From Microbacterium halotolerans (GTDB taxonomy: Bacteria; Actinomycetota; Actinomycetes; Actinomycetales; Microbacteriaceae), in the NCBI RefSeq assembly GCF_003569805.1, contig NZ_KZ984052.1:133961-197960 (forward strand): 64,000 bases of DNA, given 5' to 3'. Each line of letters opens with the position of its first letter. Positions within the stretch are counted from its first letter, which is position 1. Below, piece after piece: positions 4,627-40,688 of this stretch. The notes beneath the pieces are model-generated. The model saw only the letters and a list, made by a program, of their open reading frames with translations. It searched no databases and was not told where the DNA came from. Position numbers and translations under genes: made by a program.

Positions 4627-4639
4627 TGCGGTCGACGAT

Positions 4640-6255: not shown

Positions 6256-6477
6256 GACGCCTCCTTGGCAACGCTGGAAACGAAGTTGCGCGTTACTCCT
6301 GTTGCTCACGTTGTTCGCACGTCGTCGACAGCAGCCCAATACGAACCACCGACATTCCGTTCGTGCACGCTGACCCGTCGGGTGACGCAGACCCGTGACG
6401 CCGACGTCCGGCAGAGCCAGTTGTTGTCATTTTCCCGGAGAAGCTGTCGTGTCCGGACCCCTGCATACGATGGGCCC

Positions 6478-7341: not shown

Positions 7342-7892
7342 AACAGTCCTTGTTCGGCGGCCCACTCGGTGAATCCGCCTCTGTGGAAGGGGAGGCGGTA
7401 TTCGCCGGTGATGAGATCGTCGGCGAGGTCGGAGACCATGGCCACCGTGAGTTTCTTCTCGTGGATGGCGTCGACGAGAAGCGCAAGCGTACGCCGGCTG
7501 TTCAGGCCTGCCTGTTTTGCGATGTTGTGAGCCACCCCGTCGTCGATGAGGAGCTCGTGGCCCCGGGTTCTGCCGAGAGCCAGGACCCCGCACTCACCTC
7601 GGTTCCGTTCTCCGACCGCGAGCTGCTGTTCGAACTCGGCGAACGCCTGCAGAAAGGCCTGATCGGTGCTGCGGTCGACCGTGATCCAGTCGGCATCGAG
7701 CACCAGCCCCAAGGCTGGATCGGTCCGGCTCTGGTCTTTGAGCTCGACCTCGACACTCTCCGGGATCCACACCTGATGGTCACGCGTCAGATGCTTCAGC
7801 ACGCCGAGCCATCCCTGTAGCGCGAAGTGACGCAGCGGACCGGTGTCGAATACGATTCCCGGCCGTGGCTCTGTCACGACGCGTACTGCCAC
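7338..7892 (-). CDS. PIN-like domain protein, candidate toxin
   Basis: The 184-residue product begins its fold with VFDTGPLRHFAL, which carries the first PIN-type aspartate, followed by acidic residues around VEVELKD, GECGVLALGR, and LLIDDGVAHNIAKQAGL. This layout matches the DUF3368-type PIN-like family of metal-dependent RNases. It overlaps the upstream XRE-ImmA gene by 19 bp in the same direction, so the two are coupled. The pair looks like a toxin with a regulator or antitoxin encoded first. Toxin activity is inferred, not shown. Confidence 0.75.
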   Translation of the reverse strand: MAVRVVTEPRPGIVFDTGPLRHFALQGWLGVLKHLTRDHQVWIPESVEVELKDQSRTDPALGLVLDADWITVDRSTDQAFLQAFAEFEQQLAVGERNRGECGVLALGRTRGHELLIDDGVAHNIAKQAGLNSRRTLALLVDAIHEKKLTVAMVSDLADDLITGEYRLPFHRGGFTEWAAEQGLF

Positions 7893-9148: not shown

Positions 9149-10537
9149 TTACGGATACACCGTGAGCGCAGTGTCGTCATCTGCCCCGATCAGGCGGAGC
9201 AGTTCCACGAGGTAGGCCACAGCGTCATCCTCACTCGCCCAGGAGACGGATCTCTCTGGGGCCTCGTAGAAGCCCCAGCCGTTCTGCTGGAAGCCTCTGC
9301 TCTCCAACTCGGCGATGGCTCCAGGAAGACCGGCGGGTTGCACCTCGAGGTCTTGCGCCAGGAGTAGCCCGCCACTGGGTGTGATGGTCCATTGGACGAA
9401 CGGTTCGATGCCATTCCTCGCAGGAAGCATGACGCCCATGCCGTAGGCGTCACCTTCGGCGATCTGCTCGGAGCGGGCGCGACGGACTGCGCTGACGATG
9501 TGAGGGTGATCATCGACCTTGAGCATCGTCGGGTGAGCGGCTTGCGGTTGCGGCGTCTCAGTCGCGGTACTGCGCTCGTACCATCTGCCATGGTCGACCC
9601 AGGTAGCCCACATCGCGAAGGTGTCGGTGACACGCTGTCTGAACTCGGCGATGATCTGCTCGCCGGCGCTGGACAACGCGTAGATGGGACTTACGTCATG
9701 CGCCGCGTCGAGTTGGGCTCCGCAGTGTTGGACTGCTAAGTCGACGAACTGCTGTTTTCGCCCGTGCGTCGGGGCGGACACACCAGAGTCGTGAAGCATC
9801 TCGCGCAACTGGGCGACCGTGAGATGCTCGGCTGCGTGCGGACGTGACTCGGCGGGGTCGTCCAGCACTCGGAGGACTCCGAGGTCGACCAAAGTGCGGA
9901 ATCCCTCTTCTCGGTCGTATCCGGTGAGCCTCGTGGGATTATGCTCGGCGAACACATGTGGCGGCCCTGGACGACCTGTCCGGTCACGGACTCCCAGGTC
10001 CACCAGATGCGATCTCACTCCGAGAGGAGCCGCCAAGACTGCTCGATCCTTGACGGGGCTCGTCGTGGGAACGACGTCGGCCGGGCTCGGTCGGAAATCC
10101 GGATCCGTAGACGGATCGGTGTTGAAGGTATTGAGATAGGGATTCATAATCTTCAGCTCGAAACGAGCAGATGTTGCTTCCGGGTCGACCAGCGTCACAT
10201 CGAACGGAGCCATTGCGGCAGCGATGTACGTGTAGTCATCGCTCAGCAGAAGTGCGGTGCGGAGGGTGCGCTCTGCTTCGTCGGTGAGACCGATGAGCCC
10301 TCGCAACGGCGCGTCAATAGGGCGAAGTTGCTCCTTTTCGACCATGCCGTAGCGCTGTCGGATGAACTCGCGGATCGCCGGCTTGTCGTTTTCAGTGAGA
10401 CGCGAAGAGATCCACGGGCTGAAATCGGCGCACGGCATGTGCCTATACGGAGGGAAATCTCTCCGCAGTACCGGGCGTTCCGGCAGTCCTCGTCCAGCAG
10501 CGTACTCCACGGCATCTCGTGGTGTGGTCCGATCCAT
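9149..10537 (-). CDS. SAP-like domain protein in a repeat-flanked cassette
   Basis: The 462-residue product is preceded by a GAGGAG ribosome-binding site. Its middle holds a SAP-like helix-extended-helix segment (LTVAQLREMLHDSG, then GRKQQFVDLAVQH), usually a DNA-binding module or a tag for helical repeats. The C-terminal third, with short beta strands and DDAVAYLVELLRLIG, resembles small chaperone-like domains, but I cannot name it. The N-terminus contains PPYRHMPCADFSPW. Function unknown. The whole gene with its upstream region sits between two perfect 45-bp repeats, which suggests that it moved as a unit. Confidence 0.7.
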   Translation of the reverse strand: MDRTTPRDAVEYAAGRGLPERPVLRRDFPPYRHMPCADFSPWISSRLTENDKPAIREFIRQRYGMVEKEQLRPIDAPLRGLIGLTDEAERTLRTALLLSDDYTYIAAAMAPFDVTLVDPEATSARFELKIMNPYLNTFNTDPSTDPDFRPSPADVVPTTSPVKDRAVLAAPLGVRSHLVDLGVRDRTGRPGPPHVFAEHNPTRLTGYDREEGFRTLVDLGVLRVLDDPAESRPHAAEHLTVAQLREMLHDSGVSAPTHGRKQQFVDLAVQHCGAQLDAAHDVSPIYALSSAGEQIIAEFRQRVTDTFAMWATWVDHGRWYERSTATETPQPQAAHPTMLKVDDHPHIVSAVRRARSEQIAEGDAYGMGVMLPARNGIEPFVQWTITPSGGLLLAQDLEVQPAGLPGAIAELESRGFQQNGWGFYEAPERSVSWASEDDAVAYLVELLRLIGADDDTALTVYP

Positions 10538-14806: not shown

Positions 14807-15265
14807 CTACGGGCGCTCTACCGGATCGGCGTCCTCGATCCATTCGAGGTCAGTGTCGCCGAGGCCGGCAGCGACAGCGGTGGCCGTCTCCTGCCACGAC
14901 ACGAGCTCCGCGAGAGCCCGGTGCGGCTGGTCCGTGGAGAACGACGCGCGTGCGGCATCGACGAGGTCCTGGGCGCAGGCCTTGCGGTCCTCGTTCGAGA
15001 GGGCGAGCATCCACGGGAAGACGCGGGACATGCGCTCGGCGAGGGTGCCGTTGTCGTCGAGTGTGACGGTGATCAGCTGTGCGGCCAGCCCCAGCAGCCG
15101 GGAGCGTCCGTCTGCATCGCGCTGGGACATGAGCACCAGGTTTTCGCCGTCACGTCGGGTGATGGTGACCGGGTGGTCTTCCGCTTCGGCGAACACGTCG
15201 GCCGAGTGCTTGCTCAAATCCGAGGAACGCCGGGTAGCCCGGGGCAGGGATGCGGTTGCTGTCAT
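14807..15265 (-). CDS. Phd/YefM-like antitoxin
   Basis: From ATG 15265 the product has 152 residues. Its first part, SSDLSKHSADVFAEAEDHPV followed by TITRRDGENLVLMS, is the hallmark of Phd/YefM DNA-binding antitoxins. A helical C-terminal extension of about 100 residues follows, longer than usual, ending in an acidic stretch. The RelE-like gene follows after two bases, so the operon is antitoxin first, toxin second, with likely autoregulation at the divergent promoter shared with the XRE gene at 15356. Confidence 0.8.
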   Translation of the reverse strand: MTATASLPRATRRSSDLSKHSADVFAEAEDHPVTITRRDGENLVLMSQRDADGRSRLLGLAAQLITVTLDDNGTLAERMSRVFPWMLALSNEDRKACAQDLVDAARASFSTDQPHRALAELVSWQETATAVAAGLGDTDLEWIEDADPVERP

Positions 15266-17313: not shown

Positions 17314-18216
17314 TCACGGGCCCCACAGTCGACTATCACGGTCCCACATGGGCGGCGCACCAAGATTCGCCATCGTCACAAACTGAACCTCGGGGAATCT
17401 CCGGAGGACAGCGGGAAGCATGGTTCGCCGCCCCAGGCCGAACCGATCGAGCAGAAACTGCACCAGGGTGAGTTGAGCGAACGTGCGCTGCCATTGCGAC
17501 GTCGCCGCATCCAGATCAGGATGCACGCCCAGACCGGGGAGCTTGGGGCGTCCATGGACACGATTGAAGAGTCGACCCTGGTGCGCACAGGTGTTGCGCA
17601 CCAGATTCAGTTTTCGAAGCCAGTCGCCCAGCTGTGGGGCTCGGAGCCCACAGTCACCGGCGACCGAGTCCTGTACCGTGCGCGGAGAAATGCTGAACAG
17701 CCACGCAAGACTTCCCCAGTCCAATAGCTCCACAGCCACCCACACGGGAAGCCGTCCGTCGTAGTTCTCCTTGTGATGAACGACGAAGTCTGCGCGAGAC
17801 TTGTCCAACTCCTTCTCGTACCCCCGCAGCCACTTCGCATAATGTTTGCTTGCTTCCGTACCGAGCTTGTCCGGCATAAGATGCACGCAGGGATCGATTC
17901 GACCGAGCTCATGGCCGAGCCGAGATCTGACGAAGGTCTCGATGCGGGAGAGCTCGGCGAACGTCGCAGCGCGAAGCTGAACATCGAAGTCATACAGTGC
18001 CTTGACATCGCTCAAACGTGTGCCCGGCCTGAACGTACTGCTGCGACCGTCATCGCTGAATTGGCGAAACGGGTACCAGTACCCGCTGAGACGGTAGTAG
18101 CTGACCCGTTGCAGCAATGCCACTGCATCGTCTTCGTCTCCGACGTCCATGCCTCGATCGACAAGGCGTTGGACCTGCTCCGCATACGAGGTGTGCCGCT
18201 TGACAGCTTCGCCCAC
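17314..18216 (-). CDS. Abi_2 (AbiD/AbiF-type) abortive-infection protein
   Basis: From GTG 18216 the 300-residue protein carries the Abi_2 signatures: RVSYYRLSGYWYPFR, a strand FRPGTRLSDVKALYDFDVQL, then RIETFVRSRLGHELG. Near the C-terminus RNTCAHQGRLFN gives the R-x4-H motif of HEPN ribonucleases. Abi_2 proteins stop phage growth by killing or arresting the infected cell, probably through RNA cleavage. The gene lies in line with an HTH gene and an unknown gene upstream. Confidence 0.85.
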   Translation of the reverse strand: MGEAVKRHTSYAEQVQRLVDRGMDVGDEDDAVALLQRVSYYRLSGYWYPFRQFSDDGRSSTFRPGTRLSDVKALYDFDVQLRAATFAELSRIETFVRSRLGHELGRIDPCVHLMPDKLGTEASKHYAKWLRGYEKELDKSRADFVVHHKENYDGRLPVWVAVELLDWGSLAWLFSISPRTVQDSVAGDCGLRAPQLGDWLRKLNLVRNTCAHQGRLFNRVHGRPKLPGLGVHPDLDAATSQWQRTFAQLTLVQFLLDRFGLGRRTMLPAVLRRFPEVQFVTMANLGAPPMWDRDSRLWGP

Positions 18217-18347
18217 GTGGACCACCCAGAAAGAATGAGAACCGGCCCTGGACCTCCCGAAGGAGGCGGAACCGGTTGTTGTGTATGACACTATACGCTC
18301 TAGCGCACATCTCAGCAAGGCGGCGAGACCCTGTCTGCCGGATGATC

Positions 18348-20186: not shown

Positions 20187-22340
20187 TCACAACTCCATTC
20201 CGGCGCTTCGGTCGGGGACGTGAGCGGCCTTGCCGACGTCCGCGTCGAACTCCTTTGCGGCCGCCCGTTTCGACGCCGCCTGCTGGCGATCCGTCTCGCG
20301 GTAGGCGTGGGCCGCGCCGACGGCGTCGCCGTAGCGCGCCTCGTCGACCAGGTCTCGCAGCTCCTTGTGCCGTTCGTGGCGCTTGCCGAACTTGCGGTCG
20401 GCGCTCTTGAGCCTTTCCCGCACGTCCCTGGCGCGCGCGTTGTCACGCCATCCGATCGGGTCGTGCCTCTCCCCGCTCGTGCGTATCCTGTCGTACTCCT
20501 CCCGCATCGCTAGGCGGCCTTTGAACGACGCTTTCGCCCGTGTGAAGGCGTCGTCGCGGACCATCAGAGCCTCCACTCTCAACGTCAGCGTCTCGTAGAG
20601 CTCCGGCGAGAGGTGCTCGCCGTACTGCTGCAGGAACTGAGTGTTGACGCCACCGATGTCGTCGTTGTCGAGGATGCGGCGCTCGAACGCGGCGTCGGGC
20701 GTCCGATTCTGATAGTCCTCCTCGAGTTGGGCGACACCGTCGATGCGCTGTTGCACCCGCGGAGTCGTCGCCTTCACGCCGCGCAGCCGCGAGCGGAACG
20801 CGGGTGCGTCGGGCTCGTCATCGTCAATGGGGGTGGGATCGTCGCGCTCGGCGGCCGCGTTCTGGTTGTGTCTCGCGGTGTCGCTCAGCACAGGGGCGGG
20901 CTGGTCGGGAGCGAGGCGCTGCCGCAGATGCTCGATGTGATCGTCGGCAGCGCGGATCTGCTCGTCGAAGTTCCGGCGCGGCGCGTCCGCGGCGGCGGGG
21001 ATCGATTTGTCCGCAGCAGGCTTGCGAGCGGGTGCGCCACGTGCATCAGCGGGCGACTGTCGCTTGGCGAGCATGCGCTCGATCGTGTCGTCGTATTCGG
21101 TGGGGCGTGTGGCGATGTCCTTGAGTTCGCGGTCGATTGCGACGAGCTTCGGTTCGCGCGGCTGCGACTGGTACTCGTCGATCCAGTTCAGGTCCATCGC
21201 GAATGGGTCAGCGTGCTTGTCGAGACTGTGACGGTGCGCGGCCATCACGTCTTCGACGTCGCTCCGCCGGAATCCGGCACCGAGACCCTTGCCCGAGCCT
21301 TCGACGCCGCCGCGGCGGATGTGCGCGCGGGCGGGAGCGGCGATCGTGCCGTCGGGCCGGGCGAGCATCATGCCGTAGCTGACGTCGCGGCCGCGCGGGG
21401 TGATCGTCGCGCCGTGCTCGGGAGCGATCTCTGCGAGTGCCTCCCATGACGTCGCGCGCGGATCCTCGAGCGCTTCCCTGATGCGCGATTCGAGCACGAC
21501 CTCGCTGAAGCGCTCTGGTTCCGGTTCGATGCCTATGGCCACGGCCGCGTCCCGCTGCTGCTCGTTCAGCACGTAGCGCTCGTACTCGCGCTGCCGCCTG
21601 TCCTCGCGCTGCTGGGAGACGTGCTGGCCGGTGCCGCCCTGCAGCTTCACCGTGTTCTCGGCTGCCGTGAGCCTGCGCCGGCACTGGTTCTCGCTCAGAC
21701 CCGTCGGCATGTTCGCCACGGTGTGAGCGCGCGCGTCGTCGATGCGCTGCCGTGCGTCTGCAGCGATGTCGCGCATATCGTCGCGCTGGTGGAAGCCGTG
21801 CTCGGCGAGGATGCGGTCGTGCGCGAGCGCGAGGCGGGAGTGCGTGACGAGGTTGGAGTCGATACTCTTCCCGGTCTCCGCATGGATCGCGCCGACGATG
21901 AGGTGGTTGTGCACGCATCCGCTGCGTCCGCTGACCTCCGTGGCGATCAGCACCGGATGGCCGGGGAAGTGCTCCTCGGCGACGGCACGGCCCAACTCCT
22001 GTGCGCGTGTCCACGAGTCCGGATCGTCGGGGTCGAGCGCGTCGGGGCCGAAGCTCTGCACGAGCGAATAGGCCTGCACGTAGCGTGACTCGTACACGGT
22101 GCGCCCCTGGGCGTCCTTCTTCGCGACCGGTTGGCCGTGCTGGTCTCGAACGATCCGTCCGTCGTCGTGGACCGGCACCGGGCGCATACCGTCCTTGCCG
22201 TGCACGATGCGGATCTCGCGGAGACGCTGCTCGAACAGCGGCACCGGTGCGCCGACGGCCGAGATCATCACGGGCCCCTTCTTGCCGTAGCTCTGTGCCC
22301 GGCCCGAGGACCGCGTCGACTGCGCCGAGATGGTCGCCAT
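20187..22340 (-). CDS. Relaxase, MobP/MobQ-like
   Basis: The 717-residue protein has an N-terminal relaxase domain. It contains the histidine motif GCVHNHLIVG (H144, H146) with the usual following stretch ETGKSIDSN, and a preceding helix in HFPGHPVLIATEVSG. Such enzymes nick at oriT, stay covalently bound to the DNA and pilot the strand into a recipient through a conjugation channel. The C-terminal half is a long, charged, helical region with coiled-coil character. The gene follows mobC by six bases. Family subtype is uncertain. Confidence 0.9.
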   Translation of the reverse strand: MATISAQSTRSSGRAQSYGKKGPVMISAVGAPVPLFEQRLREIRIVHGKDGMRPVPVHDDGRIVRDQHGQPVAKKDAQGRTVYESRYVQAYSLVQSFGPDALDPDDPDSWTRAQELGRAVAEEHFPGHPVLIATEVSGRSGCVHNHLIVGAIHAETGKSIDSNLVTHSRLALAHDRILAEHGFHQRDDMRDIAADARQRIDDARAHTVANMPTGLSENQCRRRLTAAENTVKLQGGTGQHVSQQREDRRQREYERYVLNEQQRDAAVAIGIEPEPERFSEVVLESRIREALEDPRATSWEALAEIAPEHGATITPRGRDVSYGMMLARPDGTIAAPARAHIRRGGVEGSGKGLGAGFRRSDVEDVMAAHRHSLDKHADPFAMDLNWIDEYQSQPREPKLVAIDRELKDIATRPTEYDDTIERMLAKRQSPADARGAPARKPAADKSIPAAADAPRRNFDEQIRAADDHIEHLRQRLAPDQPAPVLSDTARHNQNAAAERDDPTPIDDDEPDAPAFRSRLRGVKATTPRVQQRIDGVAQLEEDYQNRTPDAAFERRILDNDDIGGVNTQFLQQYGEHLSPELYETLTLRVEALMVRDDAFTRAKASFKGRLAMREEYDRIRTSGERHDPIGWRDNARARDVRERLKSADRKFGKRHERHKELRDLVDEARYGDAVGAAHAYRETDRQQAASKRAAAKEFDADVGKAAHVPDRSAGMEL

Positions 22341-22346
22341 GGCGGA

Positions 22347-22850
22347 TCAGTCCGACTCCGCGGCGGACTGCGCTACCGCTTCGTCCGCCGCCCCCGTCAC
22401 CAGATCGACGAGCCGATCTTCGATCCGAGTGAGCGCGAGCTTGGACTCCTGCACCGCGGCGAACGCCTCGCGCACTTCGTCCTGGCCCACGACTTCGTCG
22501 AAGTTGAGTTTGCGCATGATCGTGTAGATCGAGCCCTGCGAGTGCGACACACGATTCCGGCAGTCGGAGAGGATCGCCCACGCTTCGTCGGGCACGCGCA
22601 GCGTGCGCGACGAGGTCCACGCTTCGGGCCGGCCGGCGAGTACGCGGGCTGCCTTCTCGTTCTCGGTGAGCAGGAGGCGCAACGCATCTGAGAACGGCAC
22701 CTCGTCGACTCCGACGCCGCGGCTCTTGGCGAGTGCCGTGCGCATGCGAGCGACGGCGGCTTCTTCGGCGTCGCCGAGGCGGAGTGCGCGGCGCTGACCG
22801 TAGTTGCGCGGCTTCGGCCGGCGGTGTTTCGGCTGCGACGGTGCGGACAT
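22347..22850 (-). CDS. mobC: MobC-like relaxosome accessory protein
   Basis: The 167-residue protein has a basic N-terminus (KHRRPKPRNYGQRRALRLGD), a ribbon-helix-helix-like stretch EEAAVARMRTALAKSR, and a helical C-terminal half ending in a motif like that of MobC proteins (NRVSHSQGSIYTIMRKLNFD). MobC binds next to oriT and assists strand opening for the relaxase. It is the first gene of the mobilization operon and directly abuts the non-coding region that should hold oriT. Confidence 0.75.
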   Translation of the reverse strand: MSAPSQPKHRRPKPRNYGQRRALRLGDAEEAAVARMRTALAKSRGVGVDEVPFSDALRLLLTENEKAARVLAGRPEAWTSSRTLRVPDEAWAILSDCRNRVSHSQGSIYTIMRKLNFDEVVGQDEVREAFAAVQESKLALTRIEDRLVDLVTGAADEAVAQSAAESD

Positions 22851-24715: not shown

Positions 24716-26650
24716 TCAGTGCGTTGGATCGAAGAAGCCGGTCTTGCGCAGGTGCCTCTCGAACTCTCGGGCGATGGTCTTGGCCGGGTGGGTATCCCCG
24801 GCCAAGCAGGGCGGCAATGGGCCTCTTTCTTTGATCCATGCCTCAGCCGCCTCAAGACATCGGTCGCACTTGTGAAAGTGAGGCATGCCGTTCGTCATAG
24901 CTGCGACGTGATCCGCATCCAGGAGGCCGTAGTCATGCTCCGCGGCTGCGGCCCATGCCTCGATCACGTCGGCTTTGCGATTGTCACCTTCAGGCGGCTG
25001 CTGGTCATGCTCCGCTGTTGCCATCCGGCCCCGCTGAAGTTCGGCATCGTTGTTGTGATCGGAGGGCTCCTGCTGAGCTTGTTCTGTGCCTGCCCGTTCG
25101 ATGACGCACGGAGCGCCGTCCTGGTAGGTGTGAGCGACGTTCGACGCCGTCTCCATCGCACGTTCCGTTGCGCGGGCTTCGTCATCATCGGGAAGCAGCC
25201 TCAGCCCTTGACGGAATCGACGTGAGCCTGTTCGCTTCGTCGGGTAACCGAGCTCGGTCAGACGGGTGCCGAAATCGCGCTGGCCGAGCGTGTGCTCTCG
25301 CATTACGCCGTTGGCCCGACAGTAGCGCAGATAGTCGGCGTGGAGGGTCTTCACTGCATCGCTATGGTGGTCACTGCAACCGTCCTCGCAGCGCTCGCGG
25401 ATAAACGTTGAGACGGTGTCCTGGTCGGATTTGTAGGCCTCAGTGGCCTCGGCAACGCGATCGGGGGCAGTGAGACCTTCGCGTACGTACCGTTGCAGCC
25501 CGGCCAGCGCCCATGCAAGTACGGCGTCGACCTCTTTCGTGAGTTTGCCTTCGAGTCGAGGGTCCCGCTCGTGGGGAGGTACCACGATATCCCACGGCAC
25601 TAGCCGCACGCGCTCCCAGACGGCTGGGTCGTCTGCGGGGAGCTGTGGAGCATGGTTGGTAATTAGGAGGAGCTGATGCGAGGGGGTGAACTCGACAAGT
25701 GTCTTGCTGTGGACACCGCGCGCTTTGATCGGATCGCCGCCGGTGAGAGCCTTGATCTTCGCCGCGTCCATCTCGGCCGACTTAGCCGTCTCGGACATGA
25801 AGACAATGCGCCGCCCCTTGAGAGCGAGTAGGGCGGGATTCGGCTTGTCCGCAGTTGCATGGCGATCGACATTGAACAGGTTCGGGCTCGCGACTGCGGC
25901 GTAGCTGCCGAGAGCATGCCGAATCGTGCCGTAGAACACGCCTTTGCCATTCCGCCCTGCCCCAGTGAGGATAGGCAAGAAGTGTTCGGGCTGTTCGCCG
26001 ATGAGGCAGACACCCGCTGCGGTCTGGAGGAAGGCGCGCACATCCTCATCCGGGAGGCTCCTGCTCACGAAGCGGTCCCAGAGCGAGGAATGTGCGGCAG
26101 GATCGTACTCGGCATTGGTGATCTGCGTCATCCGAAAAGATGGATCGTGCAGGTGCACTGTGAGCGAGGGCCAGTCCACGCCGTCCTCGAGCTCCCGGAG
26201 ATCAAGGACACCCGTGGGAGTGTTCAGGAGCCACGGGTCCGCGTCGAGCTCCTGAGGCTCGGCGGTGAGGTGCTTGATCGTGGACATGAGCCGCACGACA
26301 CCTGCGACCCCTGTCGACGTCTGGGACTTGGTGAGATCCGCCAGCAGCTCCTTGTCGGTGAGAGCATCCGGCGCGAGCTTTCTGACGACACTTGTAACTG
26401 CGCGGGTGACCGCTTTGTCCTCGAGATCCGGGACAAAACAGCGCCCGTTCCACTGGTACCAGCCGAGGCCAGCGACGTGGAGGAATCTCCCAACGCAGTC
26501 GGCAGCAGCCAGGTAAGCGATCCGAGCGTGAGACCGGAGCAGACCAGCGAACGCGCGCAGATCTTCAGGCGGGGCGGAATCGGTGAGCTCGTCGAGATCG
26601 GACAAGCTCTGGTCCCAAGTCTCAAGATCTGAGAACATGGCATCGGACAT
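24716..26650 (-). CDS. P4-type phage/plasmid primase-helicase
   Basis: From ATG 26650 the product has 644 residues. It shows the D5_N segment (WYQWNGRCFVPD, then DPWLLNTPTGVLDLR) and a superfamily 3 helicase domain with the Walker A GAGRNGKG at 230-237, Walker B-like RRIVFMSE, and HQLLLITNHAPQLP as a later motif. These proteins unwind and prime the replication of satellites, plasmids and integrative elements. The C-terminal 130 residues form an unusual acidic, Gln-rich tail with HFHKCDRCLEAAEAW, which could bind a metal. No separate primase catalytic domain is evident at the N-terminus. Confidence 0.88.
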   Translation of the reverse strand: MSDAMFSDLETWDQSLSDLDELTDSAPPEDLRAFAGLLRSHARIAYLAAADCVGRFLHVAGLGWYQWNGRCFVPDLEDKAVTRAVTSVVRKLAPDALTDKELLADLTKSQTSTGVAGVVRLMSTIKHLTAEPQELDADPWLLNTPTGVLDLRELEDGVDWPSLTVHLHDPSFRMTQITNAEYDPAAHSSLWDRFVSRSLPDEDVRAFLQTAAGVCLIGEQPEHFLPILTGAGRNGKGVFYGTIRHALGSYAAVASPNLFNVDRHATADKPNPALLALKGRRIVFMSETAKSAEMDAAKIKALTGGDPIKARGVHSKTLVEFTPSHQLLLITNHAPQLPADDPAVWERVRLVPWDIVVPPHERDPRLEGKLTKEVDAVLAWALAGLQRYVREGLTAPDRVAEATEAYKSDQDTVSTFIRERCEDGCSDHHSDAVKTLHADYLRYCRANGVMREHTLGQRDFGTRLTELGYPTKRTGSRRFRQGLRLLPDDDEARATERAMETASNVAHTYQDGAPCVIERAGTEQAQQEPSDHNNDAELQRGRMATAEHDQQPPEGDNRKADVIEAWAAAAEHDYGLLDADHVAAMTNGMPHFHKCDRCLEAAEAWIKERGPLPPCLAGDTHPAKTIAREFERHLRKTGFFDPTH

Positions 26651-26736
26651 TAGAGTGACCTCCCTGCAAGGTCCTCGTGTCGGGGTCGCCGAGTTACCGC
26701 TCGGTGACCCCAACTGCGTGAAGAGGCGGGAGCAGC

Positions 26737-27111: not shown

Positions 27112-27379
27112 GCTCGGACCTCGCGGTAGAGCGGATAGCCTGGAGTGGCGGCTGGGCTTGCTCCCAGCGTGATTCGAGTCCGTCCCTCGATCCTGCAGCC
27201 CCGGCACTCCGTGTGCCTGGCGTTAACAGTCTGACCATCATGGTCTGGATTGCCGGGGTGTATCTCCGTACGCTCGCCCCGACTTGCCTCAAGCGTACCA
27301 ACTTTACTTCGATATGGGAAGCTCTGCCGTGAACGGTTTCTAATATCGCATTTTTGGCTCGTTTATGAGGAGATTCGCC

Positions 27380-27766
27380 ATGGATACACCAGCAGACGTC
27401 TTCGCGCGCAGGCTCCGACATGAGCGCGAAGTGAAGCGGATTAGCCAGTCGGAGTTGGCCCGTCGGCTCAGTGACCGAACCGGCACAGGCGTGTCCGCTA
27501 CAGCAATCACGAAGATCGAATCAGGCGATCGCTCCGTGCGCATTGACGAGGCGGTTTACCTGGCGGAGATCCTCGACGTGCCGCTTTCAGCGCTGCTCAG
27601 TGATCGCGGCCCGGACGAGATTCGCATGAGCGAGCTTCGTCGTCAGATCGAGCAGCAGCGATCTCTCGCCAACACGGCTGAGCACGAATGGAGCCAAGCT
27701 AACGCAGCTTGGGCTCGTCTCCATATGGAGCTCGAAGAGCTCGAAGCCAGCTTCGATGACGACTGA
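27380..27766 (+). CDS. XRE-family regulator with coiled-coil tail
   Basis: ATG 27380 is chosen because GAGGAG lies just upstream. The 128-residue protein has an XRE domain (FARRLRHEREVKRISQSELA, then ATAITKIESGDRSVR) and a C-terminal helix with heptad-like pattern (MSELRRQIEQQRSLANTAEH). It faces the primase operon across about 270 bp with an AT-rich centre. This arrangement suggests the master repressor of the element's replication and excision functions. Confidence 0.85.
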   Translation: MDTPADVFARRLRHEREVKRISQSELARRLSDRTGTGVSATAITKIESGDRSVRIDEAVYLAEILDVPLSALLSDRGPDEIRMSELRRQIEQQRSLANTAEHEWSQANAAWARLHMELEELEASFDDD

Positions 27767-31500: not shown

Positions 31501-31812
31501 TCACGCGCTTCGCAGGATCGAGGCGATCAGCTCGCGACGCTCGGCGCTGATCGGTGGAGCCTGCTTCGCGGCCCTCTTGGCCGCCGCTACGAGGCCGGCG
31601 TACGCCCGCTCGGAGGTCTTCTTCTCGACCATGGCATCGAGGTCGTCGCGGGAGACGTAGTACTTGCCGTCTCGCATCTCGGACGGCAGGGCACCGCTCT
31701 TCACCTTGCGGCGGAGCGTGTCGATTGAGCCGTAGCGACGGTGCCCGATCGGATTGCGGATCTCGGACGCCTCGGCGAGGGTGAGGTGGTCGGTAGTCAG
31801 GATGATGGTCAT
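31501..31812 (-). CDS. Excisionase-like DNA-binding protein
   Basis: ATG 31812 gives 103 residues. The stretch LTLAEASEIRNPIGHRRYGS, then TLRRKVKSGALPSEMRDGKY and YVSRDDLDAMVEKK, is a winged HTH of the excisionase family, with a charged C-terminal tail. It is upstream of nothing else on its strand but sits next to the serine integrase, whose direction it shares. Recombination directionality factors often lie here, so it is the best candidate for controlling excision. Confidence 0.75.
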   Translation of the reverse strand: MTIILTTDHLTLAEASEIRNPIGHRRYGSIDTLRRKVKSGALPSEMRDGKYYVSRDDLDAMVEKKTSERAYAGLVAAAKRAAKQAPPISAERRELIASILRSA

Positions 31813-32158
31813 GAGACCTCCAGGGAGCCAGAGCACGAAGATGTGCTGATTTCCCTGGCTGACGCACTCACAGGTGGCGATCTACTTCACGCCTGCGCTA
31901 CCAGTTGGAGTTCCACCCGTCGGTCACCTCTGGCCGACTGGCTCCCTCCGCCCGTTCTAGTTGCTCCTGCGTCGGTGTCGGAGGGACTAGGTCGCGGTCC
32001 TTCGCGATGAGGTGGGCATTCCTCGGATGTTCTCTTAAGGGGCGTGCGAGACCCCACACGTTCCAATCGTCATTCGCCTAGTCGAATGACCACTCACAAG
32101 CCTACGCAGTATTGACTCGATTGCCTATAACCAGCGAGAGTCGAAATTCCTATCCGTC
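31813..32158. other. Gap between integrase and excisionase-like gene
   Basis: No gene is seen. A perfect palindrome with 8-bp arms and a 6-nt centre lies at 32069-32090. It could terminate the integrase transcript or serve as an operator for the excisionase-like gene. The segment around 32,090-32,150 is AT-richer and may carry the promoter of the minus-strand excisionase-like gene. Confidence 0.5.
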
Positions 32159-33691
32159 TCACCTCCACCCCGGGACCACTCGTTCGACGTCCACACCCTT
32201 CGCACCGTGACGCTCCGAGCGCTTGATGCGCGGCTGCATCACGGCACGGATGACCCTGCGCTTGTCCGCGAACTCGAGGAGCGCCCAGGCAGCCCGCACG
32301 TCGCCGGACTGCGCGAGGTCGAGCACGAGTGGGTCCGCCGCTGACAACTGCTCCAGCTTCGTCTGAGCGACTGCGATCTTCGGCCTGATGAGGTCTTCCT
32401 GCGTGAAGAGGATGTTCAGGTCATGCCGAGCCGCGGCCTGCTCACGCACATCTTCGAGGTACTGCTGATGGGCGTCGATCTCGTCGATGAGCGCCTGTCG
32501 CTCATCATCGGCCCGTCCGTCATTCTGGCCGAGAGTCGCGAGGAAGTCTGGGCGCTCCAGACGTGCCAGCAGCAGCTCCGTCACAACGAGGTCGAGGTAC
32601 TCCTCCTTCATCGTCACGTGGAAGCCGGTCTTGCCCGGCACGCCGACGCAGACATACGTGTTGTAGTGCTCCCGCGGCAGTTTCACGCCGTTCTCGTCGT
32701 ACTGTGGAGAACCCTTGTTCTGCTTGCCGACCCGCGTCCTCGCGCCGCACTCGTCGCATACGGCGATGCCCGCCAGCAGGTGACGCGCGGGCCAGTCGTT
32801 CGTGCGCTTCCTCGTTGGGTCGTTCAATAGGGGGAGCAGCGTGTGGGACCATACGTCCGGGTCGATCAGCGGAGGCCACTGCGCGTCTGCGACGACCTCG
32901 CCGTTGTGCTGACGCTTCCCAGCGTACGAGGGCGTCGTGAGCATCTGTTTGACCGCCGGAGGCGTCCATCCGAGGTGACGGCGATGGGCTTTGAACGTGG
33001 GGCGACGCGGTGGGATGCCGCGGGTGTTGAAGTCCCGCGCGATCGCGTAGAACGTCTCGCCGGCGAGCACGCGACGCGCAGCCTCCTTCACGATCGGAGC
33101 CTGATCCGGGTGTTCTTCGATCCGCAGCAGCTCGCGGGTGCGCTCGTCGTAGACCCGGCGGTACCCGTAGAGGTGCTTCCCGTGGGCGCGACCTTCTTCG
33201 GCCGCCGCGCGCACGTCGCGCTGAATGCGTTCTGAGGTCTTCGCGGACTCATACTCGCTGTCGACCGCGTCTTCGAGCATCGAGCGTCGGTCGCGGGCGT
33301 TCGCGGGGTCGTAGTCTCGTCCGTGCGTCGTCACAAAGATGCGCACACCGCGTTCTTCGCACAGCTCGATGAGCGTCACCCACTCGCCCGTCCGCCGCGA
33401 TCCTCGCGACGACTCCCAGATGACGAGAATGTCCGCGTCGAAGCGATCGTCCTCGAGGTCGTCCGTCAGCTTCCGGAAGTCCTCGCGGTCACGACGCGCG
33501 TACCGCGATGCCGAGCGATCGTCGTCGCGGTACGCGTCCGGATGCAGCGTCCATCCGCGATTCGCGACAGCAGCTGCATTCTCTGCGTGCTGCTGGTCTG
33601 GGCTCTTGCCTCTTCCGTGCCGATCGCGAGACACTCGTAGGTACTGTCGCGCGACGACCTGTTTGCCTGTGCGACCCGGGTTTTTCTGCAT
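32159..33691 (-). CDS. int: Large serine recombinase (integrase)
   Basis: ATG 33691 is chosen because AGGTGAG lies at good spacing; GTG 33700 is possible. The 510-residue protein has the resolvase catalytic domain with the nucleophile in YLRVSRD (S21), then the conserved region RFDADILVIWESSRGSR and GVRIFVTTHGRDYD, a recombinase domain (ILVIW onward to GETFYAIARDFNTRGIPP), a zinc ribbon (AVCDECGARTRV with a later YVCVGV) and a C-terminal coiled-coil region. It integrates the element at a short attachment site. It lies at the right end, reading inward. Confidence 0.95.
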   Translation of the reverse strand: MQKNPGRTGKQVVARQYLRVSRDRHGRGKSPDQQHAENAAAVANRGWTLHPDAYRDDDRSASRYARRDREDFRKLTDDLEDDRFDADILVIWESSRGSRRTGEWVTLIELCEERGVRIFVTTHGRDYDPANARDRRSMLEDAVDSEYESAKTSERIQRDVRAAAEEGRAHGKHLYGYRRVYDERTRELLRIEEHPDQAPIVKEAARRVLAGETFYAIARDFNTRGIPPRRPTFKAHRRHLGWTPPAVKQMLTTPSYAGKRQHNGEVVADAQWPPLIDPDVWSHTLLPLLNDPTRKRTNDWPARHLLAGIAVCDECGARTRVGKQNKGSPQYDENGVKLPREHYNTYVCVGVPGKTGFHVTMKEEYLDLVVTELLLARLERPDFLATLGQNDGRADDERQALIDEIDAHQQYLEDVREQAAARHDLNILFTQEDLIRPKIAVAQTKLEQLSAADPLVLDLAQSGDVRAAWALLEFADKRRVIRAVMQPRIKRSERHGAKGVDVERVVPGWR

Positions 33692-33700
33692 AAGATCCAC

Positions 33701-33745
33701 TCACCTCTAAAGAAAACTATCACTGGGGCGAACTGCGCACTTGTC
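33701..33745. other. Right attachment junction (attR) in comEC
   Basis: Between the integrase start and 33,719 the sequence changes from element to comEC coding DNA: from here the frame reads ITGANCALVVALAFGACAAL, a conserved central ComEC stretch. The crossover should lie in or next to the codons for ITGAN. The matching left junction is outside the window, so the core cannot be fixed exactly. Confidence 0.75.
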
Positions 33746-35320
33746 GTCGCGCTCGCATTCGGGGCGTGCGCCGCGCTGGGAGCGGCTCGGAGCATCCGGA
33801 TCGTGAGCTCGCTCGTCGCGCTGGCGGGCTTCGTCGCGCTCGTCACTCCGGAGGCGAGCGTGATCCGTGCCGCGACGATGGCGGCCATCGCCATGCTCGC
33901 GCTGCTGTTGGGCCGGGCAGGTGCTGGAGTCGCCGTGCTGTCGCTGGCGGTGACGGGCATCCTGCTCGCCGATCCGTGGCTCGCGCTGAACTTCGGGTTC
34001 CTGCTGTCGGTGGCGGCCACGGGGGCGCTGCTGCTGCTCGCCGGCCCGCTCGCGCGGGGGCTGGAGCGGTTCATGCCGGGGCCGCTCGCCCTTGCTCTTG
34101 CCGTGCCGTTGGCAGCGCAGCTCGCGTGCGGGCCGATCATCGTGCTGTTCGCGCCGCAGGTGCCGCTGTACGGCGTGCCGGCGAACCTCATCGCGGCTCC
34201 CGCCGCGCCGATCGCGACGGTGGCGGGGCTCGGGGCGTGCCTGTTCGCGTCGGTTCCCGGGGTCGGCGCCGCCGCGGCGTGGATCGCCTGGCTGCCGTCG
34301 GCGTGGGTGGCGCACACCGCCGAGGCATTCGCGGGGCTGCCGCGCGCACGACTCGACTGGTGGGAGGGCGCCGCGGGGTTCACGGCGCTCGCGGTCGTCG
34401 GCGCATGCGTCGCGGTGCTGATCGCCGTGCCGCCGCTGCGGTCGGGCCGCGCTTCGGGCGTGCGCGTCGTGCGGGTGTCGCTTCGTCGGGTCGCCGCTGG
34501 TCTGCTGGCGATCACACTGGGCGGTGCCGCCGGGACGGCAGCGGTGTCGGGCGCGGTCGTCGGGCCGCTGACCGTGCCGCGGGATTGGGCGATCGCGGCG
34601 TGCGACGTGGGGCAGGGCGATGCGGTGCTGGTGCGCTCGGAGGGGGAGACGATGCTGATCGACACCGGACCGGAACCGGATGTGCTGGCGGACTGTCTGA
34701 GCAGGTTGGGCATCCGGAGCATTGATCTGCTCGTGCTCACGCATTTCGACGCCGACCACACCGGCGGCGCCGAGGCCGTCGAGGGCCGAGTCGGGCACGT
34801 CCTGCACGGGCCGGAGGATGATCGAGCCGGTGCGGTGTGGCGCGCGCTCGGCGACCCGCCGCATACCGAGGTGGTCGCGGGAGACGAGGGAGCGCTGGGC
34901 GCCGCGCGCTGGCTTGTGCGGTGGCCCGCTGCCGTCGCCGCCTTCGAAGCGGGCAACGACGCCAGCGTCGTGATCGACATCTCCGGCGGCGGCGTGCCTC
35001 AGGCACTGATGCTCGGCGACACGTCGGAGGGTTCTCAGGCGGCGATGCTGCGAGGCGCATCGCTGGCTGCGTCGTACGAGGTGGTGAAGGTCGCCCACCA
35101 CGGCAGCGGCGACCAGCTCGCCCGGCTGTACAGCGAGGTCGGTGCAGCCGTGGCGATCATCCCCGTCGGAGAGAACGACTACGGGCACCCGCGTGAACGG
35201 ACGCTCGGCGTGCTCCGAACATCCGGTGCGTCGGTCGCCCGCACCGACGTGTCGGGGCTGGTGCTGATCGCCGCGGGAGACGACGGCGGGCTGCGCGTCT
35301 GGCGGGAGCGGGGCGGGTGA
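33719..35320 (+). pseudogene. comEC: 3' part of comEC, separated from its 5' half
   Basis: The 505-residue frame from GTG 33803, and the open frame before it, match the second half of the DNA-uptake channel ComEC: the hydrophobic competence domain with many membrane segments, then a metallo-beta-lactamase domain with CDVGQGDAVLV, THFDADHTGG and VAHHGSGDQ. Roughly the first third of the protein, including the N-terminal membrane part, is missing because the element is inserted in the gene. Natural uptake through ComEC should be lost while the element stays. Precise excision would rejoin the gene. Translation of the remnant from GTG 33803 is possible. Confidence 0.9.
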
Positions 35321-35374
35321 GTGTGGGCGCTGTCCCGGCAGCTTTCCGTCCGTGGCCACCGGTAGGCTGGAGGC

Positions 35375-36439
35375 ATGGCAGCCGCGTCCGCTCGTTCCGG
35401 AGGAAGAACCGCTCGTGCGGGCGGAAAACAGGCGGCGAAGACGAAGATTCCGCAGCAGTCGTGGCGCAACCCGCAGCCGGCGCCGATCGTTCTGGTAAGC
35501 GGGCCGGAGGAGGTCTGCGCCGAGCGCGGCATCGGGGCGATCCGCGACTATCTGAAGGCGGAGGATCCGTCCGTCGAGGTCACCGACATCCGGGCTGATG
35601 ACTACACGGCGGGCACTCTGCTTGCGGTGACGTCGCCTTCGCTGTTCGGCGAGCCGAGGTTGGTGCGCGTCGCCGGGGTCGAGAAGTGCTCAGACGCATT
35701 CCTCGATGAGGCGCTGAAGTACATCGAGGCGCCGCAGGAGGGTGCGACCCTCGTGCTCCGCCACACGGGCGCGACCGTGCGCGGTAAGAAGCTGCTCGAC
35801 GCGATCCGCTCCGGCATCGGCGGCGGAGCGGAGGTGCCCTGCCCAGCGATCAAGCGCGATGCCGAGCGGCACGACTTCGCGGCAGGCGAGTTCAGGGCGG
35901 CGGGGCGCGCGATCGCACCGAAGGCGCTGCAGGCGCTGACCTCGGCGTTCGCCGACGACCTCACGGAGCTCGCCGGCGCCTGTCAGCAGCTGCTCGCCGA
36001 CGTCGACGGCGACATCACGGCGGAAGTCGTGGCGAGGTACTACGGCGGTCGGGTCGAGACGAACGCGTTCGCCGTCGCCGACACGGCGATCGCAGGCCAG
36101 TACGGTGAAGCGCTCGTCGCGCTGCGGCACGCGCTGGCATCAGGCGCCGACCCCGTGCCGATGGTGGCGGCCTTCGCGATGAAGATGCGCACGATGGCAC
36201 GAGTCGCGGGGCAGCGCGGATCCTCCCGCGACATCGCGATGCGCGTCGGCATGAAGGACTGGCAGGTCGATCGCGCGCGCCGCGACCTCCAGGCCGGGTG
36301 GAGCCCGCGCAGCCTCGGCGCCGCGATCCAGGCGATCGCCCGTGCCGATGCCGAGGTGAAGGGCGCCTCCCGCGACCCGATCTTCGCGCTCGAGCGCATG
36401 GTGACGGTCGTCGCCACCCGCCGCCCCTTCGCCGCCTGA
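35375..36439 (+). CDS. holA: DNA polymerase III subunit delta
   Basis: The 354-residue protein has the HolA clamp-loader fold: IVLVSGPEEVCAERGIGAIR near the N-terminus (the degenerate nucleotide-binding region), SLFGEPRLVRVAGVEK, then a lid and C-terminal collar helices with GMKDWQVDRARRDLQAGWSP. It opens the sliding clamp at the replication fork. A 35-residue basic extension precedes the fold. It directly follows comEC, the standard gene order in many Gram-positives, which confirms the chromosomal side of the junction. Confidence 0.93.
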   Translation: MAAASARSGGRTARAGGKQAAKTKIPQQSWRNPQPAPIVLVSGPEEVCAERGIGAIRDYLKAEDPSVEVTDIRADDYTAGTLLAVTSPSLFGEPRLVRVAGVEKCSDAFLDEALKYIEAPQEGATLVLRHTGATVRGKKLLDAIRSGIGGGAEVPCPAIKRDAERHDFAAGEFRAAGRAIAPKALQALTSAFADDLTELAGACQQLLADVDGDITAEVVARYYGGRVETNAFAVADTAIAGQYGEALVALRHALASGADPVPMVAAFAMKMRTMARVAGQRGSSRDIAMRVGMKDWQVDRARRDLQAGWSPRSLGAAIQAIARADAEVKGASRDPIFALERMVTVVATRRPFAA

Positions 36440-36461
36440 GCGCTTGCCCCACCTCGTGAAC

Positions 36462-36530
36462 TGCCTGGGCTTCGTCGAGATGCCACGGAATGGCGGGGAA
36501 AGTGATCCACTCCATGGCATCTCGTGAATG
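36462..36530. repeat. Hairpin element, left flank of the AbiEi-like gene
   Basis: Arms at 36476-36485 and 36515-36524 pair over 10 bp. The same sequence in inverted orientation, with some changes, lies at 37589-37658 on the other side of the gene. Both begin or end with the block TGCCTGGGCTT. Confidence 0.75.
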
Positions 36531-36633
36531 CTAGAGATCAGAGTTTCCCTCACAGGCATCGGAATCGACGGATTGCTGTCCACAGGCGCCGCCAGCGTTG
36601 GTCGCAGCGAGGCCATCGCGTCAGGGTGACAGT

Positions 36634-37581
36634 ATGTCTGAACTTCTCACCCATTCGCGTTCTGATCTCACTCGGTCGGGGGTGAGCGATCGAGCGCTGC
36701 GCGAGGCGCTGCGGTCAGGACAGCTCCTCCGGATTCGCAATGGTCACTTCGTCGATGCAGGAAAGTGGGAGTCTGCGCATCCGGAGCAAAAAGAAGTCGC
36801 GGCGGCGCGCGCAGCGCAGCGGGATGCGCACGGCCGCCACGTGTTCTCACATGCGACTGCCGCGGCACTGCACGGCCTGCCACTGTTCCGCCACCGCCCT
36901 GGGCGACCGCACGTGATGATCGGCAACGACACGCTCTCCGGCACCAGCCCCGCAGTCGCGCGCCACCATGACCTGTGGGACGGCGAAACGACCGAACGCG
37001 ACGGATTGCTGGCGACGACGCTTGTCCGTACGACGTTCGACGTGCTGCGTACCTGTCGTGCCGAGACTGCCGTCGCCTGCATCGACGCTGCGATGCGACG
37101 GGTCGCATTGCAGGAGGACCGGCGCATCGACCATCACCGAGCCGAGGAGTTTCGCGACGAGGTGATTCGTCTGATCCGGACTGCAACCGGGAAACGGGGC
37201 GTGAAGCAGGCCCGCGAGTTGACTGCGTTCGCCGATCCGCGGGCGGAGTCACCCGGAGAGAGCGTGAGTCGGATGTACTTGGCCCGCCTGGGCTTCGATG
37301 GGATCGAGCAGCAGGTGCCGATCACCGCTCCTAACGGTCGCACGTACACCGTGGATTTCAGAGTGTCAGGCGTGCTCGGCGAATTCGACGGCGCGCGTAA
37401 ATACATCGATCGCGGCATGCGCGGAGGACGATCCGTGGAGCAGGTGGTGCTCGACGAGAAGCGACGCGAAGACTGGATCCGTGCCCGGTCCGGCGAGAGG
37501 CTCATCCGGTGGACGAATCAGGAGATCACCACGCCCGATCACTTCCTCCGATTCCTGCGGTCGATCAACGTGTGGCCGTGA
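36634..37581 (+). CDS. AbiEi-type antitoxin-domain protein with DUF559-like C-terminus
   Basis: ATG 36634 (MSELLTHSRSDLTRSGVSDR) gives 315 residues. The N-terminus has the winged-helix pattern of AbiEi-family antitoxin domains (ALREALRSGQLLRIRNGHFV), followed by a helical domain around VFSHATAAALHGLPLF. The C-terminus (VDFRVSGVLGEFDGARKYID, EKRREDWIRARSGERLIRWT) resembles DUF559/VSR-like PD-(D/E)xK folds. Such genes are abundant singletons in actinobacteria and usually lack a clear toxin partner. Hairpin repeats in inverted orientation flank it, suggesting it was acquired or duplicated. Confidence 0.7.
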   Translation: MSELLTHSRSDLTRSGVSDRALREALRSGQLLRIRNGHFVDAGKWESAHPEQKEVAAARAAQRDAHGRHVFSHATAAALHGLPLFRHRPGRPHVMIGNDTLSGTSPAVARHHDLWDGETTERDGLLATTLVRTTFDVLRTCRAETAVACIDAAMRRVALQEDRRIDHHRAEEFRDEVIRLIRTATGKRGVKQARELTAFADPRAESPGESVSRMYLARLGFDGIEQQVPITAPNGRTYTVDFRVSGVLGEFDGARKYIDRGMRGGRSVEQVVLDEKRREDWIRARSGERLIRWTNQEITTPDHFLRFLRSINVWP

Positions 37582-37588
37582 GCGGTGC

Positions 37589-37658
37589 GTGAGATGCCCT
37601 GGGATGGTTCAGAATGCCGTTCATTCTCCGGCATCTCGGTAAAGCCCAGGCATCTCGC
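37589..37658. repeat. Hairpin element, right flank, inverted copy
   Basis: Arms GAGATGCC (37591-37598) and GGCATCTC (37630-37637) pair. The element matches the left one at 36462-36530 in reverse orientation across about 65 bp with interruptions. Confidence 0.75.
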
Positions 37659-37671
37659 GAGGGAGAGGGAA

Positions 37672-37715
37672 CGAAACGAAGGGCCCGCCTCCAAGGAGAC
37701 GGACCCTTCGTTTCG
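37672..37715 (-). terminator. rpsT terminator
   Basis: Perfect 12-bp arms (37672-37683 and 37704-37715) enclose an inner GC-rich pairing. It lies nine bases after the rpsT stop. A T-containing stretch follows on the minus strand only weakly. Confidence 0.85.
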
Positions 37716-37724
37716 CGGATCAGC

Positions 37725-37985
37725 TCAGAGAGCGGCGATCTGCTTGGCGACCTTCGACTTGCGGTTCGCCGCCTGGTTCTTGTGGATGACGCCCTTGCTG
37801 ACAGCCTTGTCCAGCTTCTTGGAGGCCTTGGCGTAGGCCGCCTCGGCTGCGGACTTGTCGCCGGAGGCGATCGCCTTGCGCGTGTTGCGCACGAGCGACT
37901 TCAGTTCGGAGCGCACGATGCGATTGCGGTCGCGAGCCTTCTCGTTGGTCTTGATGCGCTTGAGCTGCGACTTGATGTTTGCCAC
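37725..37985 (-). CDS. rpsT: 30S ribosomal protein S20
   Basis: The start is GTG 37985, giving 86 residues with the S20 pattern: [20 protein letters not shown], then [16 protein letters not shown], and [21 protein letters not shown]20 binds 16S rRNA early in 30S assembly and is all helical and basic. It is divergent from lepA, a common arrangement in bacteria. The larger upstream frame is not used. Confidence 0.95.
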
Positions 37986-38186
37986 GTGTCGGATGACCTT
38001 CGTTCGTAAGTGGATCGGATGTCGCCGCACAGCGAGAGAGGGGCGCCGGGCGGCAGGTGTGGGAGGCCCCACACGCAAGCCAAAGGCCAATACTACCAGC
38101 AACCGCCCGTGCGTACGTGCAGGCTTCGGAGCATCCCGACCGGCCGCGCGGGAAGATCGCCCGTCCGCCGGTAGACTGACCGGAAC

Positions 38187-40034
<1,848 letters not shown>

Positions 40035-40043
40035 GCTGACGGG

Positions 40044-40688
40044 ATGCGCCGGGGGAACTTCCGAGACGAAACCGTGGACTACGCCGCCGTCGGGGCGACG
40101 CAGGCGACCGATCTGATGCAGTTCCCACCGGAGCAGAGCCTGCCGGCGTCGGAGTCTCGCCGCATCGGCAGCGGGGAGGATCGTTTCCGCGCCGCGAGCG
40201 AGCTTCTGCTGGGCTGGGCGGCCCAGCGCGCGGCAGGTCAGGTCGTCGAGGTCAAGCCCGCGGCCGGGCCCGCCTACACGGGTGTGAGCTTCGACGCGGA
40301 GGGCAACGCCGTCGCTCCCGCTGACCTGGCGGGCGAGCAGCGCTTCGACGCCGAGGGGCTGCCGCTGGTGTCAGGCGGCGCGACCATCACTCTGCGCGGT
40401 CGTGTGAAGGGCAAGCGCGTGACGGGGGAGTACCGGGTGATCTTCCTGTCGGAGAGCGGGCGCCGCGTCGCGTTCGCCCTCGGAACCGTGGGCGGTGCCG
40501 TCGTCAGCGGCGAGGAGCTGTTCGCGCTGGAATGGCGCGATGACGATGAGGTGTGGCTCGAGCTGCGCGCCTTCGACCGGCCGACCAAGCTCTTCGGACG
40601 CATGTTCAAGGGGCTCGTCCGCTCGCGTCGGCGCGCCCTGTTCGACCGCTACCTGCGTGCGATCTCGCCGCTTTACAAGACGCCGTAA
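40044..40688 (+). CDS. DUF1990 family protein
   Basis: The 214-residue protein begins with a motif typical of DUF1990 (VDYAAVGATQATDLMQFPPE), then IGSGEDRFRAASELLLGWAA, and later EYRVIFLSESGRRVAFALGT and a basic C-terminal end. Its biochemical role is unknown. The stop overlaps the hemW start (TAATG), so it is probably cotranscribed and coupled with lepA and hemW. Confidence 0.8.
   Translation: MRRGNFRDETVDYAAVGATQATDLMQFPPEQSLPASESRRIGSGEDRFRAASELLLGWAAQRAAGQVVEVKPAAGPAYTGVSFDAEGNAVAPADLAGEQRFDAEGLPLVSGGATITLRGRVKGKRVTGEYRVIFLSESGRRVAFALGTVGGAVVSGEELFALEWRDDDEVWLELRAFDRPTKLFGRMFKGLVRSRRRALFDRYLRAISPLYKTP

Follow-up and report, generated by a model that had tools for sequence, protein, structure and literature searches.

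What divides the gene for a DNA-uptake channel in two, and what would the division mean for the cell that carries it? The question is raised by comEC of Microbacterium halotolerans (draft genome of 3.55 Mb, 9 contigs) and by the 64,000-bp stretch analysed here as the window (bases 133961-197960 of contig 2, C2), in which the gene lacks its beginning and a serine integrase gene lies close by. ComEC is the channel through which DNA is taken up. The gene is cut by a 47,264-bp serine-integrase element (C2:120421-167684), which splits it at the conserved motif HLTAVSGAN; the right 33.7 kb of the element fill window positions 1-33726, and the remaining 13,540 bp, on the left, precede the window (G000:C2:120421-133960, G000 being the genome itself). 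The explanation favoured here, and held as a whole with high confidence, is that the element's recombinase inserted it at a GG dinucleotide of comEC, that DNA uptake would be blocked while the element is resident, and that exact excision would be possible.

The divided gene and its crossover site

The 3' part of comEC, with the channel domain (Competence, PF03772, matched from profile position 28) and the metallo-beta-lactamase domain (PF00753), occupies 33725-35320 (+) and is recognised by ComEC families. Its reading frame is open from end to end and is followed by holA, the host gene after comEC (35375-36439, +; TIGR01128 above cut-off). On its other side, 24 bases separate the first comEC base, 33725, from the end of the integrase open reading frame (ORF; 32159-33700, -). 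The original prediction, which had placed the integrase start within tens of bases of comEC, the upstream part of the gene outside the window and an intact remainder running into holA, is borne out on each point. It had also pointed to the DNA left of the window for the 5' half, and there, 13.5 kb away at the left end of the element, a query with intact ComEC proteins of relatives located it (G000:C2:119593-120422, positions 5593-6422 of locus L014). The 5' half overlaps the end of comEA, has leuS upstream and breaks off after the residues ...SHLTAVS; the 3' half starts at the next codon, Gly, at window position 33725, and continues to holA. That the window holds an old duplicate beside a second, intact comEC was rejected, as PF03772 matches the genome once only. 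Neither of the two outcomes by which the original prediction would have fallen has thus come about.

A relative, G336, preserves the undivided state. Its comEC is the most similar intact gene among the matches listed in the comEC search of the genus, and it aligns with the left flank (1212-6424) at 92.1% DNA identity and with window 33725-40518 at 91.9%. The breakpoints of the two alignments adjoin in G336 (5217 and 5214), collinear and gap-free between the pieces, so that G336 carries the empty site, in keeping with the intact relative that had been anticipated. The M. halotolerans flanks, joined in silico, give an open ComEC frame of 807 amino acids.

The junctions fix the crossover to two bases. 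attL reads GCCGTGAGC-GG-AGACATC (core at L014 6421-6422) and attR reads ACTATCACT-GG-GGCGAACTG (core at window 33725-33726, +); they have only GG in common, with which the Gly codon of AVS-G-AN begins. The left 26-nt attP arm, retained in attR at 33699-33724 (+; ACTCACC...ATCACT), forms an inverted repeat with the arm in attL, 14 of 26 positions being paired. The attP so reconstructed conforms to the pattern of large serine recombinases, a site of some 50 bp whose arms are inverted repeats and whose two core bases recur in attB. That the target is a conserved coding site, as first supposed, is evident from SHLTAVSGANCA, which is identical at HLTAVS-G-AN in 11/11 intact relatives listed.

In the mechanism proposed, the recombinase would pair attP, with its two 26-nt arms around GG, with an attB inside the chromosomal comEC and cross over at the GG that opens the Gly codon of HLTAVSGAN. 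This step is anchored by both junctions, by the empty site of G336, by the presence of a recombinase gene and by other elements with the same crossover, and the element's own recombinase is the likely agent. That the element can leave, that uptake is lost and that either is selected for we infer from the sequence. Insertion separates the N-terminal part of ComEC from the channel and metallo-beta-lactamase domains; with no full-length ComEC expected while the element is resident, DNA uptake would very likely be lost, provided that the species transforms at all. The expectation follows by analogy from Micrococcus luteus, in which deletion of comEC abolishes transformation (PMC4322843), and two freshwater species, placed in the Microbacteriaceae by their paper, take up DNA naturally (PMC11577799). 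The recombinase, together with a directionality factor for which a small HTH_17 protein is the candidate, may excise the element exactly and restore comEC. The site is probably used because it combines a highly conserved coding sequence with a loss of transformation that would shield the element from removal by homologous recombination; this protection, probable as it is, is the least certain step. Between 33550 and 35450 a scan with the sigma-70 consensus detected no promoter; the downstream gene, holA, is an essential one in other bacteria.

One codon in many genomes

Counted at E <= 1e-60, relatives of the integrase occur in 10 of 366 genomes of the genus, and eight of these ten have their comEC divided at the codon in question (G000, G150, G142, G076, G318, G236, G052 and G108). 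Both halves were found in all eight: on one contig in five, with elements of about 47 kb (G000), 58 kb (G142), 148 kb (G076), 42 kb (G108) and 95 kb (G052), and on separate contigs in G318, G150 and G236. Two irregular comEC genes were rejected as insertions, that of G164 (L080, ~11900) being frameshifted without an insertion and that of G348 being cut short by a contig edge. The Pfam content of these other elements, taken from chosen larger ORFs with the 25 most frequent families listed, is varied: a type IV coupling protein accompanies a related relaxase in the G142 element, and those of G108 and G052 have Mob_Pre-type relaxases. The ~148-kb island of G076 (L055-L062) holds glycoside hydrolases, sugar transport, several restriction systems and a DNA polymerase III alpha-like protein. 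At the comEC junction of G318 (L064 2102-5000) stand two tandem serine recombinases, an arrangement as reported for Phi1207.3.

The same codon is hit in at least 12 other actinobacterial genomes. A search of named genomes gave 15 integrase loci in 13 genomes, with comEC within the DNA around the integrase at four of the 15. The best six of the 13 were searched genome-wide for comEC, and in all six (Arthrobacter terricola, Granulicoccus phenolivorans, a Pseudarthrobacter sp., Leucobacter chromiireducens, L. salsicius and an uncultured Nocardioides) the channel domain is truncated, starting at profile position 26-28. A 5' piece was recovered in four of the six; the two Leucobacter yield the 3' half only.

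Surveys blind to the integrase added three split genes (G832, G853 and G976), each with a serine recombinase beside one half. Across the family the comEC domain is present in 144 of 145 genomes, and in 141 of the 144 the match begins at profile position 1-3, the exceptions being the truncated genes of G000, G832 and G853. The crossover in G832 is the same, the element is about 39 kb long and the adjoining integrase is 56% identical. In G853 the break in comEC falls about nine codons before the Gly codon, and the recombinase beside it is 26% identical over 328 amino acids (L112 9443-10900); judged by eye, the ends there are palindromic, GTAACAC...GTGTTAC (L113, ~14910-14940). Across the class (135 of 138 genomes with the domain) only G976, from another family, is split at this site besides G000. 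Here a ~40-kb prophage (minor tail proteins, endolysin, antirepressor; L116-L117) lies in comEC, its recombinase 34% identical to that of M. halotolerans and its core the same GG. The G976 recombinase sits at the side of the 5' half, not the 3' half. Adjacent comEC fragments in G900 and G977 look like frameshifts and were rejected as insertions.

Both ends were recovered for 15 elements, and crossover at the same GG fits 13: the eight of the genus and those of Granulicoccus, Arthrobacter (integrase not adjacent), Pseudarthrobacter, G832 and G976. The other two are G749 (Nocardioides), in which the crossover base is ambiguous, and G853, with its different site. Since 13 of 15 elements use one GG while 141 of 144 comEC matches in the family start at profile position 1-3, the position is not a matter of chance. 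The shared bases are exactly GG in G000; some other elements share a few neighbours too, and GG is common to all. The attP computation covered these 13, G749 and G853 having been set aside beforehand. In ten main-clade elements attP consists of 26 nt, GG and 26 nt, with inverted arms whose outer ends resemble ACCCACC...GGTGGGT; in this register, picked by eye, the arms pair on average at 16.7 of 26 positions (13 to 19), against a mean of 7.3 for shuffled arms and a highest mean of 9.9 in 2000 shuffles. By element, 19 positions pair in G076, 14 in G000, 12 in G976 and seven in G318, whose arms appear paired once shifted by one base.

How far the recombinases themselves extend can be judged from wider searches. 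At E <= 1e-60, a sample of 396 genomes of the order yielded no integrase besides the element's own. Relatives number nine among the pattern matches in IMG/VR (at most 41% identical), 220 in phage records (all below 60%, and at most 36% among the best 30 of the 220 listed) and nine in plasmid records (at most 30%). In a tree of 23 recombinases, which leaves out G832, G853 and G976, users of comEC fall on several branches, with modest support at some nodes, and a pair of integrases from G089 is nested among them. Thus, with varied Pfam content and comEC users on several branches, the codon serves mobile elements of more than one kind. The G089 integrases may have changed in specificity.

What the element carries

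Content was established by a Pfam scan of 29 proteins (small ORFs were left out, as were others such as L014 6877-7488 and 9971-10519). The integrase, 513 amino acids long, fits the layout of large serine recombinases, in which a Resolvase N-terminal domain (PF00239, residues 20-171) precedes a Recombinase domain (PF07508, residues 198-285) in a protein of about 500 amino acids. The candidate directionality factor is a small HTH_17 protein at 31501-31836 (-; PF12728, slightly below cut-off), so named because counterparts 59-60% identical to it lie directly downstream of the integrase in loci L029 and L030. A MobA/VirD2-like relaxase (20187-22340, -; PF03432, E 6e-10) is 61% identical in its N-terminal part to the relaxase of the G142 element. 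Next to it, at 22347-22850 (-), a protein without Pfam match, probably a relaxase accessory by its position, is 63% identical to the protein beside the G142 relaxase.

The element is probably an integrative mobilizable element, judged by its gene content, as integrase (PF00239/PF07508) and relaxase (PF03432) are both present, as such an element requires. The scan found no conjugation machinery among the 29 proteins, a subset of the element's ORFs. Nor did it detect phage structural or lysis genes among them, and a prophage identity is unsupported.

The remaining proteins include a plasmid/phage-type primase-helicase (D5_N; 24716-26713, -; PF08706, PF19263), a Cro/C1-type regulator (27365-27766, +; PF13560, PF01381) and a regulator combining a helix-turn-helix (HTH) domain with an IrrE-like peptidase (7874-8995, -; PF01381, PF06114). 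There are further an Abi_2/AbiD-like protein (17314-18318, -; PF07751, E 1.5e-44; PADLOC AbiD, E 1.6e-52), an Mrr-type nuclease (6421-7341, +; PF04471) and, by Pfam, a type I restriction-modification set of HsdM, HsdS and HsdR. A 462-amino-acid protein at window 9149-10537 has a HeH/LEM-like motif.

Alternative readings and known systems

Several observations weigh against insertion by the element's recombinase with loss and possible restoration of uptake. Integrases of the same clade coexist with an intact comEC in G089 (two integrases, loci L023 and L027) and in G181 (a broken integrase), so membership of the clade does not tie an integrase to comEC. In G236, G052, G108 and one Leucobacter (L032) the integrase stands about 2-5 kb away from the comEC half. 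In A. terricola (L029) the integrase is beside neither comEC half in the assembly, and of two 5' pieces one has a stop. The ratio of nonsynonymous to synonymous substitution rates (dN/dS) against G336 is 0.33 and 0.18 for the comEC halves, above the 0.09 of comEA and the 0.05 of holA, and some relaxation of constraint is possible. Neither excision nor a circular form nor a repaired comEC has been observed, and loss of uptake presupposes a species that transforms. As to A. terricola itself, the integrase is preceded, upstream of 5001 in L029, by a sequence like an attP arm and not by comEC; comEC, at another place in the genome, is interrupted between similar arms, and two related elements may be present.

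The most serious alternative concerns the reason for the site rather than the insertion, and makes competence a bystander. HLTAVSGAN, a strongly conserved coding motif, would be used because it is reliable, and the loss of uptake would be a side effect of no benefit to the element. This is quite possible, if somewhat short of an even chance. The identity of SHLTAVSGANCA in all 11 intact relatives listed is what it would predict, diverse serine recombinases at one conserved coding site are a general pattern, of which a prolyl isomerase is an example (PMC10083194), and splits of comEC are rare, at 2/143 and 1/134 sampled genomes with that of M. halotolerans excluded. It accounts less well for G853, whose distant recombinase reached comEC about nine codons upstream, for the strong enrichment of competence genes among serine recombinase targets (PMC10083194) and for the elements known in comK, comYC, comFA and comM (PMC4774983). 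Tentatively, and as a possibility rather than an expectation, mobilizable and conjugative islands and prophages may carry a dedicated group of actinobacterial anti-competence serine recombinases, whose convergence on a single Gly codon of comEC would, by silencing uptake, spare the elements removal by transformation. The distant recombinase of G853 and the prophage of G976 point to repeated choice of comEC; the conserved motif alone could also explain the convergence. If the group is real, host and mobile DNA would contend for comEC throughout the phylum.

A second alternative is a regulated switch, in which the element would leave under defined conditions, uptake would work for a while and the element would return; the original prediction had likened the logic of the locus to the comK prophage switch of Listeria. 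The stop-free halves, the open joined frame and the HTH protein beside the integrase are compatible with it, but elements of this type are generally able to excise, so that an open joined frame is expected without any switch. Neither regulated nor spontaneous excision is in evidence; restoration by excision thus agrees with the sequence, the switch goes beyond the evidence, and this alternative is unlikely.

Slightly less probable again is a decayed remnant, an old fixed insertion whose host has given up the use of comEC. The raised dN/dS of the halves relative to their two neighbours would fit such a history, but both halves and the integrase are free of stops and frameshifts, the att arms still pair and comEC is matched in 360 of the 366 genomes of the genus. 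An artefact of assembly or annotation, to which a draft of nine contigs and the halves on different contigs in G318, G150 and G236 might lend colour, has a negligible chance, as the halves share one contig in G000, G142, G076, G108, G052, G832, G976 and G749, the first seven of which fit the same GG.

Insertion by the element's recombinase, with uptake blocked while it is resident, therefore stays the preferred explanation, and its reach is wider than the single case first noted, extending to multiple genera and several kinds of element. Few species of actinobacteria are known to transform naturally, and a recurrent, base-exact site in the uptake channel gene provides a natural experiment in which strains that carry the element can be compared, for uptake and recombination, with those that lack it. 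The integrases, whose attB is defined and conserved, are also possible genetic tools for actinobacteria.

Among known systems the closest are Phi1207.3 (formerly Tn1207.3) and Phi10394.4 of Streptococcus pyogenes and Tn1207.1 of the pneumococcus, which share with the present element serine recombinases and insertion inside comEC (PMC4260502, PMC8321556, PMC4288039). One pneumococcal clade has lost transformation through Tn1207.1 in its comEC (PMC8321556). Phi1207.3 and its relatives enter streptococcal comEC at a GA dinucleotide (PMC4260502). The original prediction, which named no element described for this part of comEC, goes too far here, since serine-recombinase elements were already known from the streptococcal gene, if with a GA core. 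At 52.5 kb Phi1207.3 is of similar size, and its tandem recombinases are matched in G318. The core dinucleotide is GA there and GG here. Phi1207.3 is a Firmicutes prophage with macrolide efflux genes, whereas the actinobacterial element bears a relaxase; with GG as core and no mef(A)/msr(D) cargo among the 29 scanned proteins, it was not assigned to the Tn1207.3/Phi1207.3 family.

In Piscirickettsia salmonis comEC is likewise lost through mobile DNA, but by various transposons at non-identical positions and with erosion, whereas here there is one recurrent site with open halves; by that paper's account mobile elements seldom disrupt comEC, streptococci being named alongside Piscirickettsia (PMC12955456). 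The comK prophage of Listeria resembles the present element in that a competence gene is split by an element with its own integrase (PMC4774983, PMC12955456). It differs in that comK is a regulator gene, entered by a phage with an excision switch, whereas here the gene encodes the channel and excision is only compatible with the sequence.

More generally, elements in comYC, comFA, comK and comM, and the benefit of disabling transformation, have been described (PMC4774983; later PMC12637031, PMC11472951). Among the elements of Croucher et al. 2016, related integrases enter one gene at equivalent positions in different species (PMC4774983), and homologous integrases at the corresponding comEC site in several genera follow the same rule. 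Unrelated recombinases hit the same gene there too (comFA), as they do comEC here; the genes and phyla are otherwise different, comEC appearing as the uptake pore and the target of the pneumococcal mefA cassette, and that text has no occurrence of the word actinobacteria (PMC4774983). The large serine recombinase survey of Durrant et al. reports DNA competence genes as strongly enriched targets, with no occurrence of comEC in its main text (PMC10083194). No comEC-targeting elements of actinobacteria were recognised in searches of openly licensed papers. Together, these comparisons place insertions in competence genes, streptococcal comEC included, among what was already known, and add actinobacteria to the published examples through a group of comEC-targeting integrases that is new.

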